From positions 2,836,501 to 2,900,500 of the forward strand of contig NC_015167.1 of assembly GCF_000190595.1 (NCBI RefSeq): a stretch of DNA of 64,000 nucleotides, read 5' to 3'. Below are positions 42,585 to 47,915 of the stretch, piece by piece. Both the position numbers and the translations under genes were made by a program. Positions within the stretch are counted from its first letter, which is position 1. Each line of letters begins with the position of its first letter. Origin of the DNA: Cellulophaga lytica DSM 7489 (GTDB lineage Bacteria; Bacteroidota; Bacteroidia; Flavobacteriales; Flavobacteriaceae). The notes under the pieces are model-generated. The model was not told where the DNA came from. It saw only the letters and a list, made by a program, of their open reading frames with translations, and ran no database searches.

Positions 42585-42609
42585 AAACCCTACTTTTTAA
42601 AGCTCCGTA
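42585..42609 (+). promoter_or_regulatory. ECF-type promoter of the DUF4331 operon
   Basis: AAACC (42585-42589), 16 bases, then CGTA (42606-42609) within CTCCGTAAGTAG, 33 bases before the ATG. The same AAACC-N16-CGTA and CTCCGTA-T/A-GTAG arrangement precedes the 47-residue gene at 45620. -35 AACC and -10 CGTA are typical of ECF sigma promoters. An 8-bp inverted repeat CCCTACTT/AAGTAGGG also spans it. Confidence 0.6.
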
Positions 42610-42642
42610 AGTAGGGGTGAATTATAATTAAAACATACTACA

Positions 42643-43320
42643 ATGAGAAAAAACAGAAATTTATTAGTTATATGCTTACTAGCAATAGTAGGTGTAGTAT
42701 TGGTAGCGGCAGATCATATAGATGCACCGTCTACTACAGGACAAACTGCAGATATTGCAGATTTTTATGCTTTTGAGCCTACAGAGGGATCTGACAATAC
42801 CGTATTTGTAGTAGACTTACAAACCAATGTTTTACCAGATTTAGCTTACGGTACTTTTGATGAAGGTGTACTAACAGAAATTAATATAGATAAAGATGGT
42901 GATTTAGTTGAAGATTTAGTAATACAAGCTATACCAAGAGACGGTGTTATGTACTTTTTTGGACCTATAGCACCATCTGCTACTGGTTTAAGTGGTGAGG
43001 TTATGGTAGACGCTCCATTAGGTTCAGTTGCTATATCTGGTGCTACTGCTACGGTAGAAGAACTATCTAATGGGGTAAAACTATTTGCAGGCCCAAGGCA
43101 AGATGCTTTCTTTTTTGACTTTACACAGTTTAATGCAGTTATAGGCGGTATGGCTCCAGAAGGTTTTAAGGCTGTAGGTGAGTCTACAGATACTTTTAAT
43201 GGTGCAAATACAATGTCTATTGCAATAGAAATTCCTAACACTATGTTGGGTACAACCACAGCTACTAATGCTTTAGGTTTAGAAGTGTACAAAACTTGGG
43301 TAACTACAAACAAAAAATAA
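42643..43320 (+). CDS. DUF4331 family protein, N-terminal half
   Basis: A 225-residue exported protein (hydrophobic start LLVICLLAIVGVVLVAADHI). It carries the N-terminal half of DUF4331: DHIDAPSTTGQTADIADFYA, then FVVDLQTNVLP, FFFDFTQFNAVIGG and MSIAIEIPNTML. It stops where whole DUF4331 proteins continue with Q-V-x-R-M-G; that segment opens the next gene. DUF4331 proteins are periplasmic or surface, of unknown role. It is preceded by an ECF-type promoter. Confidence 0.87.
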   Translation: MRKNRNLLVICLLAIVGVVLVAADHIDAPSTTGQTADIADFYAFEPTEGSDNTVFVVDLQTNVLPDLAYGTFDEGVLTEINIDKDGDLVEDLVIQAIPRDGVMYFFGPIAPSATGLSGEVMVDAPLGSVAISGATATVEELSNGVKLFAGPRQDAFFFDFTQFNAVIGGMAPEGFKAVGESTDTFNGANTMSIAIEIPNTMLGTTTATNALGLEVYKTWVTTNKK

Positions 43321-43341
43321 TAATACTAAAAACTTACAATT

Positions 43342-44037
43342 ATGAAATTATATAATATAAAACACCTGGCCTTAGCTTTTGGAGCTGCATTAACTATAGC
43401 ATCTTGTTCTGATGATGATAATGGAGATATGCAAATGGAACCAGAAATGACCGATTTTTCTGGAACATACACACAGGTAGACCATATGGGTAGACCTGGT
43501 ATTAACACAGTTTTGTCTTATGATGTAGAAGGGCAAGCAAGTGTTAAAGATGCTCAAAATGTTACAGTACCTTCAGAAATGGGTGCAATGTTTCAGGCTG
43601 GTTTTGAAGCTAGGCTAGAGCAATACCATGATGTTTATGCAAATTTATTAGGAGCAGATCCTGCAGATGTAAACTACGAGAACAATATTTTAGGTTTAGA
43701 CGCTGCAACATTAACGGGTTATTTAGCAGCAGATGTATTAGAAGTTGCTCCTAATTTACCAACTACATATTTTAATCCAGGTACAGATAATGATGGTGAT
43801 GGTAGAGTTCTTGTGCCAGATGGGGATGAAGTTGCTTTAACCGGAAGATTAATAACAGATGACGTTATTGATGTTTCTTTAATACTACTTTTTGGAGGAG
43901 AAGAAGGAGACCGTTTTAGTGGTCAAGACACAGATGGTGATGGTACAGCAGATTTACCTCGTTTAACATCAGATGGTGTTAGCTTAACAGCAACAGTTTC
44001 TACTGATTTTCCTTTTTTAGGAACTCCAGAAAACTAA
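43342..44037 (+). CDS. DUF4331-related lipoprotein, C-terminal half
   Basis: A 231-residue lipoprotein (Cys22 in LTIASCSDDDN). After the signal it begins with FSGTYTQVDHMGRPGINTVL, matching the second half of DUF4331 proteins, then LEVAPNLPTTYFNPGTDNDG and LTSDGVSLTATV. Calcium-like loops DNDGDGRV and DTDGDGTAD are present. It starts 21 bp after the first DUF4331 gene. The pair may form one functional unit split over two polypeptides. Function is unknown. Confidence 0.82.
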   Translation: MKLYNIKHLALAFGAALTIASCSDDDNGDMQMEPEMTDFSGTYTQVDHMGRPGINTVLSYDVEGQASVKDAQNVTVPSEMGAMFQAGFEARLEQYHDVYANLLGADPADVNYENNILGLDAATLTGYLAADVLEVAPNLPTTYFNPGTDNDGDGRVLVPDGDEVALTGRLITDDVIDVSLILLFGGEEGDRFSGQDTDGDGTADLPRLTSDGVSLTATVSTDFPFLGTPEN

Positions 44038-44052
44038 ACACGTACTAATTGC

Positions 44053-44073
44053 AAGGGAGGTTTAACCTCCCTT
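44053..44073 (+). terminator. Terminator after the DUF4331 pair
   Basis: AAGGGAGGT/ACCTCCCTT, a 9-bp stem with a 3-base loop and TTTT tail, 15 bases after the stop; a partial block before the TPR gene. Confidence 0.8.
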
Positions 44074-44111
44074 TTACTCAACTTATTTTTAACTCTACAA
44101 AATTTTAAAAA

Positions 44112-45389
44112 ATGAAAAATTTAGCCTTATATATACTCTTAATTACTTTTGCTTCTTGTAATTTAGATGGTAATACAACAGTTACAAACGCAGAAGATTA
44201 TAATGCATTTTTAAAGGTTGATGCAGAAAAAACAACATCAAGACAATATGAGTTGTGGAACTCAAAAATAAAACCAGATAGTATGCAAATTGCCAGTTTT
44301 GGTATGGTTGCACAAGAATATAATAGGTATTTTAAAAACACTGGTAAAATAGAATATCTTAAAAAGGCAGAACAATGTTTAGCAAGAGCTGTAGATGTTG
44401 CAGCAGTTAATAAAGCAGATTTTTATAGATCATTAGGGCGTAATTATATTTCTCAGCATAGGTTTAAAGAAGCATTGCAAATGGCACTGGAAGCCCAAAA
44501 AATGGGCAGTGGAGTAACGCAAACGCAAAGTCTTTTGTTTGATGTATATATGGAGTTAGGCGATTATGATAAAGCAGAGGAAACTTTATCTCTCTTAAAA
44601 GATAAAAATAGCTTTGGTTATTTAATTAGGATAGCAAAATGGAAAGACTATAAAGGAGATTTAGATGCTACTATAGCTTATATGGAAAAAGCTAAACAGC
44701 TAGCAGAAATGTCTAACAATACCAATTTAAAAATATGGTCTTATACTAATATTGCAGATTATTACGGTCACGCCGGAAGAATTAAAGACTCTTACAATTA
44801 CTATTTAAAATCTTTAGAATTAGAACCTCATAATGCATATGCTAAAAAGGGAATTGCATGGATTGTTTTTTCATACGAACGAAACCCAACAGAAGCACTA
44901 CGCATTTTAAACGCAATTACAAAAAGTTATAATGCTCCAGATTATTATTTACTAAAGGCAGAAATTGCAGAATTTCAAGAAAATAAAGTAGAGAAACTTA
45001 AAAATATGGATAGGTATGTAAAGGCTGTGGCTAACCCTTCATATGGTGCTATGTACAATGCATACAATGTTAACTTTTATTTAGATTATACAGATTTGTA
45101 TAGTAAAGCTTTAGATATCGCTAAAAAAGAAGTGAATAGTAGAAAAACTCCAGAGTCTTATATGTTGCTAGCTCATAGCTTATATAAAAAAGGAGATGTA
45201 GCTAATGCTGTTGCTATTATAGAAAAGCATATAGAAGGCAAAACTTTTGAGCCTCATATTTTATACAGTTCTGCAGAAATTTATAAGGCAGCAGGAAAAA
45301 CAAAAAAAGTAAAAGAATTAAAAGAAGAATTAATAGATGCAATTTATGAATTAGGTCCTAATATGGAGAAAAAAATTGCTCAATTATAA
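44112..45389 (+). CDS. TPR-repeat lipoprotein
   Basis: A 425-residue lipoprotein (Cys16 in ITFASCNLDGN) made largely of tetratricopeptide repeats (for example LKKAEQCLARAVDVAAVNKA, SLGRNYISQHRFKEALQMAL, WSYTNIADYYGHAGRIKDSY). TPR stacks bind protein partners. It follows the DUF4331 pair after a terminator, so it may be expressed at lower level in the same unit. No catalytic motif. The role is unknown; a periplasmic scaffold is one possibility. Confidence 0.87.
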   Translation: MKNLALYILLITFASCNLDGNTTVTNAEDYNAFLKVDAEKTTSRQYELWNSKIKPDSMQIASFGMVAQEYNRYFKNTGKIEYLKKAEQCLARAVDVAAVNKADFYRSLGRNYISQHRFKEALQMALEAQKMGSGVTQTQSLLFDVYMELGDYDKAEETLSLLKDKNSFGYLIRIAKWKDYKGDLDATIAYMEKAKQLAEMSNNTNLKIWSYTNIADYYGHAGRIKDSYNYYLKSLELEPHNAYAKKGIAWIVFSYERNPTEALRILNAITKSYNAPDYYLLKAEIAEFQENKVEKLKNMDRYVKAVANPSYGAMYNAYNVNFYLDYTDLYSKALDIAKKEVNSRKTPESYMLLAHSLYKKGDVANAVAIIEKHIEGKTFEPHILYSSAEIYKAAGKTKKVKELKEELIDAIYELGPNMEKKIAQL

Positions 45390-45440
45390 TTTATTACAAG
45401 TACAACTTTTGTAGAGTTTAGTTGTAGGTTGTTGCTAAAG

Positions 45441-45473
45441 AGTACCAAGGCACTTGTGTTTTGGTGCTTTTTT
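45441..45473 (+). terminator. Terminator after the TPR gene
   Basis: AGTACCAA/TTGGTGCT, an 8-bp stem (one G-T pair) with a 12-base loop and a T6 tail. Confidence 0.75.
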
Positions 45474-45537
45474 ATTTATAAAATTTTAAGATTTTTTTAT
45501 GTTAATATACTAAAACAACAAAATTACAGTTTTAATA

Positions 45538-45562
45538 AAACCACTTAACCTAAAACTCCGTA
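45538..45562 (+). promoter_or_regulatory. ECF-type promoter of the 47-residue membrane protein gene
   Basis: AAACC (45538-45542), 16 bases, CGTA (45559-45562) within ACTCCGTATGTAG. Same spacing and -10 as the DUF4331 promoter, so both are probably read by the ECF sigma factor encoded 1.2 kb downstream on the other strand. Confidence 0.6.
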
Positions 45563-45619
45563 TGTAGTGAAAATAGGTGCAGCATTATAAATGCAACAAC
45601 TATTAAAAACATATTTGTT

Positions 45620-45763
45620 ATGGAATATTATTTTTTTACACTTTGGATTGCCGTAATGGCGTTTTATTGCTACAAGTTGTTTGCAGCACACAAATCTTTA
45701 AAAAAAGTAGAGTATAATAATGCTCATAAATTAAAAGAAAAACAGATTAAAATACATAAATAG
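45620..45763 (+). CDS. Small membrane protein, 47 residues
   Basis: ATG at 45620 to TAG at 45761-45763 encodes 47 residues: a hydrophobic helix (EYYFFTLWIAVMAFYCYKLF) followed by a basic tail (HKLKEKQIKIHK). It sits between an ECF-type promoter and a strong terminator, so it is a complete transcription unit. Topology prediction is one membrane helix with a basic cytoplasmic end. I do not recognise a family; an envelope-stress role is possible from its promoter. Confidence 0.6.
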   Translation: MEYYFFTLWIAVMAFYCYKLFAAHKSLKKVEYNNAHKLKEKQIKIHK

Positions 45764-45920: not shown

Positions 45921-46721
45921 TTATGAGCTAGCGGCTACACCCAATGTGTATAATTGCTCTAGAGTAGGAGACTCGCTACCACCTGCAGGCTCTAAGGTAA
46001 TACCAAAGGCTTCAGAGTTGTTAGCATTTGCTAAAGCAAATATTTTATTTTCATCTCCTTTAAAGTCTTCAAGTAGTCCTAAGCTAGTTGGAGTTAAAGG
46101 ATTAAGTTTTAAAGACCATACTTGATACACAAAACCATCTGGTGGCTCTGGTAATCCTTTGGCATCTATAAATACTTTTTGTTCTTTTTTGTTCCAGTAT
46201 GCTTTTGCATAAGACTCTGGCGAAACTGCTTGTCCGCCTAAAGCAACAACATCTATATTTTTGTCTCTAATTGTATTTAGTAAATCTTGTGTTTCAATTA
46301 AAGAATTATTTGCATTATCTATTTTAGATTCTAAGTCAATTTTTTCTTGTGAAACTACTTCTATTTTAGATTCCAAATCTTTATTTTGGTTGTACATCCA
46401 AAGCATACCGGCAGATAAAACCACTGCAGCAGCCCAGCCTGTATACGTGGCCCAACCAGATTTTTGTTTTGGTAACTGTACAACTTTAGTATTATCTTCC
46501 AAATTTAGCCTACGTTTAATAGCAGTAAACATATTACTATCTAATTTAGGAGAAGCAGATTTGCTAAGTGCTAATATAGAGGCTTCTATGGCTTCTATTT
46601 CTTTTTTAAGTTCCGGATGCTGTTCAGCATCATTATGTATTTGCAAGTTTTCTTCTTTAGAAAGCACACCTGCAACATAAAGTTCTAGTTTTCCGGACGC
46701 TATGTATTCTTCAATGTTCAT
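45921..46721 (-). CDS. Anti-sigma factor, RskA-type
   Basis: A 266-residue membrane anti-sigma factor. Residues 1-90 are an N-terminal cytoplasmic sigma-binding zone (MNIEEYIASGKLELYVAGVL, about 1-20), residues about 92-110 a membrane helix (WAAAVVLSAGMLWMY), then a coiled coil (EKIDLESKIDNANNSLIETQ) and the C-terminal RskA-like domain (FVYQVWSLKLNPLTPTSLGL, ALANANNSEAFGITLEPAGG). It should hold the adjacent ECF sigma factor inactive until an envelope signal. Its ATG is 5 bases after the sigma stop. Confidence 0.9.
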   Translation of the reverse strand: MNIEEYIASGKLELYVAGVLSKEENLQIHNDAEQHPELKKEIEAIEASILALSKSASPKLDSNMFTAIKRRLNLEDNTKVVQLPKQKSGWATYTGWAAAVVLSAGMLWMYNQNKDLESKIEVVSQEKIDLESKIDNANNSLIETQDLLNTIRDKNIDVVALGGQAVSPESYAKAYWNKKEQKVFIDAKGLPEPPDGFVYQVWSLKLNPLTPTSLGLLEDFKGDENKIFALANANNSEAFGITLEPAGGSESPTLEQLYTLGVAASS

Positions 46722-46725
46722 ATCC

Positions 46726-47256
46726 CTATCCTAATACATTTTTTCTTAATTGCGATATGCAACTTCTGTTTCTTGTTTTAATAGTACCTAAAGGAATATT
46801 TAATTCCTCTGATGCTTCTTTTTGGGTATAGCCTTTAAAGTATAACATTTCTATTATTTGTACACACTTGTCTTTTAAGTTAACTAAAAACTTTTTAACT
46901 CCAATGGCATCCATTTTATCATCTAGGTTATTTTTATCTTCTAAGATACTTACGAAGTAATCTGCAGATAGGTTTTGTTTGCTGTTTTTGTGGGATTTAG
47001 AACGCACTTCATCTATAGCAGCATTGCGAGCAATGTTTAAAATCCAAGTAAAAAACCTCCCTTTAGACGCATTGTATTTGTCTGCATTATTCCAGATTTT
47101 TACAAAAACATCCTGACATATTTCTTGAGATATATCTGAGTTTTTTACAATTGTATTTATTACACCACAAATGTTTTCAGAATACATATCATATAATTTT
47201 TCAAAAGCTTTTGGGTCTTTATTCTGAAATTGTATAACTAGGGTCTCTAATTGCAT
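46726..47256 (-). CDS. ECF sigma factor
   Basis: A 176-residue RNA polymerase sigma-70 family ECF factor: sigma-2 region (FEKLYDMYSENICGVINTIV, DISQEICQDVFVKIW, about 17-75) and sigma-4 helix-turn-helix (about 125-175, IIEMLYFKGYTQKEASEELN, LGTIKTRNRSCISQLR). It forms an operon with the RskA-type anti-sigma factor. Two promoters with AAACC-N16-CGTA on the other strand are its likely targets. Confidence 0.93.
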   Translation of the reverse strand: MQLETLVIQFQNKDPKAFEKLYDMYSENICGVINTIVKNSDISQEICQDVFVKIWNNADKYNASKGRFFTWILNIARNAAIDEVRSKSHKNSKQNLSADYFVSILEDKNNLDDKMDAIGVKKFLVNLKDKCVQIIEMLYFKGYTQKEASEELNIPLGTIKTRNRSCISQLRKNVLG

Positions 47257-47336: not shown

Positions 47337-47915
47337 TTATTCAATAATTCCTGCGCAACTTACTCTTGCACCAGCATTACCACTAGGTTGAGATGTAAAA
47401 TCGTCTACACCTTCATGAACTATTATTCCTTTTCCTAGAATATTTTTTTTAGGATCTTCACAACCTAAACACCATTCATTGGTGCTAAATTTAATTTCAG
47501 AATTACCGTTATTGTCAGCAATAAAATTTCCAATATCTCCTTTATGGTATCCGTCTTTATCTCCCCATTTTCCGTGTTTTTCAAAAGTTGGGTTCCAGTG
47601 TCCGCCTGCAGATTTACCATCATCAGAAGAGCAATCTGCTTTTTCGTGAATATGTATGGCGTGTTCACCTTCTTTTAAACCTGTAAGGTTGGCAACCATT
47701 GCCACTTTGTTGTTATTTTGGGTAAAGGTAATTTTACCAGTAACATTACTGTTACTTTTAGGCTCCAATGTAATTGTTAGTGTTTTTGATTTCTCATTAT
47801 CAGGAATTACAGTGGCTTTTGTTGTAGAAGTTTCCTCTGTTTTTTTATTTTGATTTTTACAACTGTATGTAAAACTTATAAAAAGAATTGATAGCGTTAC
47901 TATTATTTTATTCAT
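47337..47915 (-). CDS. sodC: Cu/Zn superoxide dismutase lipoprotein
   Basis: A 192-residue Cu/Zn superoxide dismutase with lipid-attachment Cys19 (FISFTYSCKNQ). Metal ligands and signatures are HAIHIHEKADC, SAGGHWNP, HGKWGDKDGYHKGD and the C-terminal GNAGARVSCAG; the first and last cysteines form the usual disulfide. It dismutates superoxide in the periplasm. It ends in a strong terminator and stands alone. With OxyR/Dps it adds to oxidative-stress defence in this window. Confidence 0.95.
   Translation of the reverse strand: MNKIIVTLSILFISFTYSCKNQNKKTEETSTTKATVIPDNEKSKTLTITLEPKSNSNVTGKITFTQNNNKVAMVANLTGLKEGEHAIHIHEKADCSSDDGKSAGGHWNPTFEKHGKWGDKDGYHKGDIGNFIADNNGNSEIKFSTNEWCLGCEDPKKNILGKGIIVHEGVDDFTSQPSGNAGARVSCAGIIE

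Follow-up and report, generated by a model that had tools for sequence, protein, structure and literature searches.

The closest described counterparts of the gene cluster analyzed here are the SigK-RskA pair of Mycobacterium, the SigH-RshA pair of Corynebacterium glutamicum, and the RpoE-ChrR photooxidative response of Rhodobacter, all summarized here from the covered parts of the cited papers. Mycobacterium SigK-RskA controls mpt70 and mpt83 (PMC7509140; PMC9861118), SigK carries two cysteines, 133 and 183, and in M. tuberculosis the genomic sigK gene is subject to autoregulation via Rv0449cp (PMC7509140). In C. glutamicum, a SigH-dependent promoter inside sigH, PrshA, transcribes only the anti-sigma gene and has been proposed to shut the response down (PMC3489674). 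The fasciclin gene RSP_1409 of R. sphaeroides is raised under stress, and RpoE-ChrR of R. capsulatus is described as closer to SigK-RskA (PMC7074977). According to the covered parts of PMC7406223, a class I anti-sigma factor lies near just 6% of the ECF sigma factors of Bacteroidetes, and the literature that we searched with Bacteroidetes ECF promoter terms yielded no paper.

The window, a 64,000-nucleotide stretch of the 3.77 Mb genome of Cellulophaga lytica DSM 7489 (G000:C1:2836501-2900500), contains what appears to be a Bacteroidota version of the SigK-RskA (ECF18/ECF19) stress switch. The original prediction had proposed a regulon in a system that it could not name; family, NCBIfam, and PDB matches now allow that system to be called SigK/RskA-like. 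The sigma factor has ECF regions 2 and 4, among NCBIfam models it matches SigK PRK09646 best (E 8e-37), though with a score of 126.7 bits that stays below the cut-off of 226, and its best PDB match is SigK 4nqw. It stands next to a membrane anti-sigma factor with an RskA_C domain, a homolog of which follows the sigma gene in all 130 sigma genes that we compared. The features of the locus are as follows.

42585..42609, plus strand: predicted sigma-dependent promoter of the DUF4331 operon, AAACC-N16-CGTA (CTCCGTAAGTAG to 42614), conserved in relatives
42643..43320, plus strand: D4331a, probably secreted, N-terminal part of DUF4331 (PF14224, by Pfam)
43342..44037, plus strand: D4331b, lipoprotein (lipobox IASC), C-terminal part of DUF4331
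44112..45389, plus strand: TPR lipoprotein (lipobox FASC)
45538..45562, plus strand: predicted sigma-dependent promoter of the small membrane gene, AAACC-N16-CGTA (CTCCGTATGTAG to 45567)
45620..45763, plus strand: 47-aa membrane protein, with counterparts of 41-51 aa in other Cellulophaga
45921..46721, minus strand: RskA-type membrane anti-sigma factor (PF10099, 63.3 bits against a cut-off of 29.4)
46726..47256, minus strand: SigK-like ECF sigma factor (PF04542 and PF04545)
46951..46975, minus strand: predicted intragenic promoter on the sense strand of the sigma gene, from motif and conservation
47337-47915, minus strand: Cu/Zn-SOD gene beside the sigma gene, from family search

Like Mycobacterium SigK-RskA, this cluster pairs an adjacent ECF sigma factor and RskA-type anti-sigma factor with fasciclin targets (predicted here, MPT70/MPT83 in Mycobacterium), and 4nqw is the closest solved sigma factor; it differs in a predicted regulon that includes DUF4331, TPR, and small membrane proteins. 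Whereas sigK of M. tuberculosis is described as autoregulated in the covered parts of the source, in Cellulophaga we found only the intragenic site before the anti-sigma gene. For that site the closest precedent is sigH-rshA of C. glutamicum, where the cognate promoter motif likewise lies within the sigma gene and faces the anti-sigma gene. The sigma factor there is a different one, however, and in the covered parts of that study transcription starts 62 and 66 nt before rshA, as opposed to a site about 230 nt before the anti-sigma ATG here. Unlike PrshA, the Cellulophaga site sits between sigma regions 2 and 4, over codons 94-102, and is conserved at the codon level over many genera. The Rhodobacter response shares a stress-linked fasciclin gene but employs ChrR as the anti-sigma factor in R. 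sphaeroides, and the covered parts of PMC7074977 mention no DUF4331. The principle of an intragenic anti-sigma promoter is known, with a precedent in one species, and the lineage is new: among the titles and abstract openings listed in a literature search that covered few subscription journals, there was no report of one in Bacteroidota.

In our preferred reading, to which we assign a probability of roughly 0.8, an intragenic promoter of the sigma gene lets this sigma factor drive expression of its anti-sigma gene, as a negative feedback, together with an envelope regulon that would most likely answer to an oxidative signal. The RskA-type membrane protein would keep the ECF sigma factor bound and let it go on an envelope signal, most likely oxidative damage, whereupon the freed sigma factor would read promoters of the form RAACC-N15-17-CGTA-NN-T. 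Its predicted targets here are the split DUF4331-TPR operon, the gene for the 47-aa membrane protein, a fasciclin gene, and the promoter inside the sigma gene, which would yield mRNA for the anti-sigma factor but no additional full-length sigma mRNA, damping the response. The sites and their conservation are directly observed; that they are promoters, that this sigma factor reads them, and that feedback and an oxidative signal are involved is what we infer. If correct, this amounts to a proposed promoter code and regulon for one of the rare Bacteroidetes ECF/anti-sigma pairs.

The two sites first noticed, AAACC-N16-CGTA before the DUF4331 gene and before the small membrane gene, are indeed present, with the shared flank CTCCGTAWGTAG around both CGTAs (42603-42614 and 45556-45567), at distances of 33 nt from the DUF4331 ATG at 42643 and 57 nt from that of the 47-aa ORF at 45620, and the sigma and anti-sigma genes adjoin them as claimed. 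The window contains three matches to this motif against 0.32 expected, the third being the one inside the sigma gene, which had escaped earlier notice. A search of the genome for the bare motif found no enrichment (35 sites against 52 for a reversed control) and fails as proof of a regulon; 24 of the 30 sites examined among these 35, the sigma-internal one included, lie in open frames of at least 150 codons. Allowing up to one mismatch, CTCCGTAWGTAG is in excess at 30 sites against 5 in the control, but we rejected this excess as a regulon measure because 26 of the 30 fall in open frames of that length. Only the two window sites among them have AAACC 16 nt before the CGTA, and one more has it at spacing 15, inside a 680-codon frame. 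The extended pattern RAACC-N15/16-CGTANGTA occurs at six places in the genome and two in the control: before the DUF4331, small membrane, and fasciclin genes, inside the sigma gene, before a gene for a lipoprotein-like protein of at least 473 aa, and in one long ORF.

Statistics of a single genome would not establish a regulon, and it is the comparison with relatives that argues strongly for a real one beside its sigma factor. Matches to D4331a occur in 16 of 18 Cellulophaga and in 119 of 299 genomes of the family, and all but four of 104 distinct regions upstream of the first DUF4331 gene contain RAACC-N15-17-CGTA (100 observed, 0.20 expected from shuffles; the exceptions are L143, L188, L275, and L280), with a median of 39 nt from CGTA to the D4331a start. 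The window sites are credible because sites are kept in this way before the DUF4331 and fasciclin genes of relatives. The exact spacing of 16 claimed at the outset holds for the window pair but gives way in relatives to a DUF4331 spacing of 15 or 16 (43 and 36 regions), and the shared flank, real for the pair, is more broadly best described as CGTA-N-N-T. Across the 299 genomes, 110 have both the sigma factor and D4331a, 22 the sigma factor alone, 9 D4331a alone, and 158 neither, in a comparison with differing cut-offs (E 1e-3 and 1e-40) and two genome draws taken as identical. The earlier observation is confirmed, and its two sites look like further targets of the predicted switch; the bigger surprise is the intragenic site.

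The fasciclin gene (C1:1735590-1736165, PF02469) lies about 1.14 Mb from the cluster with AAACCCTGTTTTACTTTTTACCGTAGGTA upstream, and site and gene sequence together make it a predicted fasciclin-domain target of the kind associated with SigK-RskA. The site is found in 13 of 18 Cellulophaga, this genome included, at the 13 best-scoring loci, one per genome. The other 17 FAS1 loci retrieved all lack it, among them the top-scoring locus in each of the 5 Cellulophaga left over. In other genera, 10 of 29 loci have it and 19 lack it. Among 15 other Cellulophaga loci, 12 have a site before the small membrane ORF, with different spacers; of the rest, L109 and L110 are without it, and the contig of L105 ends before the position. 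In a scan of the genus, the 28 sites examined of 49 listed divide into D4331a (4), fasciclin (5), small membrane ORF (5), a 340-aa lipoprotein (3), sigma-internal (3), DUF547-like (2, one checked by Pfam), and other or inside ORFs (6), with 0 to 4 matches per genome and strand for the reversed pattern. Genomes of other genera have divergent sites flanked by a glycosyltransferase-like gene on one side and a DUF547-like gene on the other; the Cellulophaga examples that were typed are a GT2 (just under the TIGR04283 cut-off) and a DUF547.

This gene content also bears on what the regulon is for. The alternative that survives best holds that the regulon is real and serves general envelope or lipid homeostasis instead of oxidative stress, a possibility that we take seriously while thinking it the doubtful one. 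It would fit the MMPL transporter, DUF547, GT2 glycosyltransferase, and outer-membrane protein genes of the cluster in relatives, some of which carry the site. It sits less well with the Cu/Zn-SOD gene beside the sigma gene, with the SelR/MsrB genes beside the sigma gene that are preceded by the site in two relatives, L333 and L337, and with the links of fasciclin genes to light or photooxidation in the covered parts of PMC9861118 and PMC7074977. Such gene content, together with analogy, makes an oxidative signal probable, and DUF4331 is linked through the predicted regulon to fasciclin and SelR/MsrB proteins. In L333, a fasciclin gene beside the sigma gene is also preceded by the site.

Conservation of the intragenic site was followed in 130 distinct sigma genes, the window's own and orthologs at 48-97% identity to it. 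The exact RAACC-N16-CGTA is present in 120 of them, always at nucleotide offset 281 and nowhere else in the gene, and it persists at 34 of the 37 loci without a D4331a match. No motif lies within 150 nt upstream of any of the 130 sigma genes (for L112 and L130 the sequence there is limited to 116 and 11 nt), and the anti-sigma gene follows in every case; therefore, active sigma factor would be expected to raise the anti-sigma factor alone. If the element were instead a site of holoenzyme binding or pausing that tunes read-through of the sigma-anti-sigma mRNA, no new transcript would be made. Intragenic promoter-like sequences can indeed cause pausing, and many intragenic sigma sites are inactive (covered parts of PMC10771440). 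We nevertheless consider this explanation improbable, since the element matches the regulon sites in its -35, its -10, and the spacing between them, faces the anti-sigma gene, and has no counterpart upstream of the sigma gene. Feedback through internal transcripts would need translation of the anti-sigma factor to be independent of that of the sigma factor, and the two genes abut or nearly overlap. A product consisting of sigma region 4 alone is an unlikely outcome of the internal transcript because in 99 of the 130 genes an in-frame ATG is absent from the 32 codons checked past the motif. Counting against the feedback model, the exact motif is missing from 10 of the 130 near sigma genes and from 4 of 19 far ones, in each case by its -35 side; all ten of the near genes keep CGTA, as do the four far ones (L335, L336, L341, and L343).

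The codons under the site tell most clearly what is being conserved. N95 is AAC in 127 of 130 genes and V102 is GTA in all 130; codon 101 always ends in C (TTC 121, CTC 9), and the third base of codon 103 is always T, while the codon encodes G, D, S, N, H, Y, or R. Among 1500 random pairs of genes, those with the same residue share the codon in 98.7% of cases at codons 95 and 101-103, as opposed to 47.9% outside codons 93-103. With codons recoded synonymously at local usage, 3.96 motif-bearing genes would be expected where 120 are observed, an expectation that treats related sequences as independent when synonymous sites elsewhere in the gene agree at only that 47.9%. Six of 1508 codon columns in nine genes reach 95% for one codon with less than 50% expected, and four of the six are in the motif, the others being anti-sigma codon 7 and D4331a codon 224.

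We also chose 19 more distant sigma genes from a phylum search (40-57% identity), one from the same family, four from the same order, thirteen from the same class, and one from the phylum beyond the class. The motif is found in 15 of these, at spacing 16 or 17, against 0.96 expected. In some, the -35 falls in another codon register or the linker differs (KNQELENNV, SKTDSMDDYV, NQTVTFDV), so that the DNA is retained across changes in the protein. A rival view, in which conservation of the linker as protein produces the intragenic match as a side effect and there is no DNA signal, is already disfavoured and seems to us scarcely credible: N95, V102, and F101/L101 are conserved as protein, but the frozen synonymous choice, a codon 103 third-base T kept over seven amino acids, and distant relatives that keep the DNA with other residues all speak against it.

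The codon pattern shows selection at the DNA level on this predicted promoter, strong enough for conservation of the intragenic site to mark the protein. It is quite likely that the linker of Bacteroidota SigK-like sigma factors is a dual code in several families and orders, its amino acids largely dictated by a promoter that the sigma factor itself reads, and that an old feedback onto the anti-sigma gene alone has been kept while the surrounding regulon changes. A promoter may in this way shape a protein linker. These findings name the exact nucleotides concerned and carry a warning for codon recoding of such sigma genes.

The DUF4331 family appears to be split across two genes here: D4331a matches PF14224 best over profile positions 153-235, and D4331b over 243-421, where its score of 25.6 bits falls slightly short of the cut-off of 27. 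Structure models of the two proteins suggested no function: that of D4331a (mean pLDDT 78) has no PDB match better than E 0.16, and that of D4331b is poor (mean pLDDT 49). No paper with the term DUF4331 was found in the literature searched. Divergent from the operon, here and in many relatives, is a gene for a LETM1-related biofilm-associated protein (NF040639, 41315-42499, minus strand).

Several smaller observations concern neighboring elements. The genome encodes a paralog of the sigma factor (L348, G000:C1:644039-644527), SigK-like at 43% identity and followed by an anti-sigma relative, with no exact intragenic motif. The 340-aa lipoprotein that carries the site in several Cellulophaga (L309, L317, L318) has no Pfam or NCBIfam match, and a search without a positive control found no match to it in this genome. 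Anti-sigma codons 6-7 (TAC ATA; 46701-46706, minus strand) are nearly frozen, I7 being ATA in 122 of 126 and Y6 TAC in 106 of 118, possibly as a translation-start or RNA element. The lipoprotein-like gene of the extended pattern, cut by the locus end (L225, G000:C1:151731), is preceded by AAACC-N16-CGTATGTA and is divergent from genes resembling, by eye, another ECF sigma factor and a FecR-like partner. AAACC-N16-CGTACATA lies shortly 5' of a 121-aa ORF (L018, G000:C1:1806448), a possible further target.
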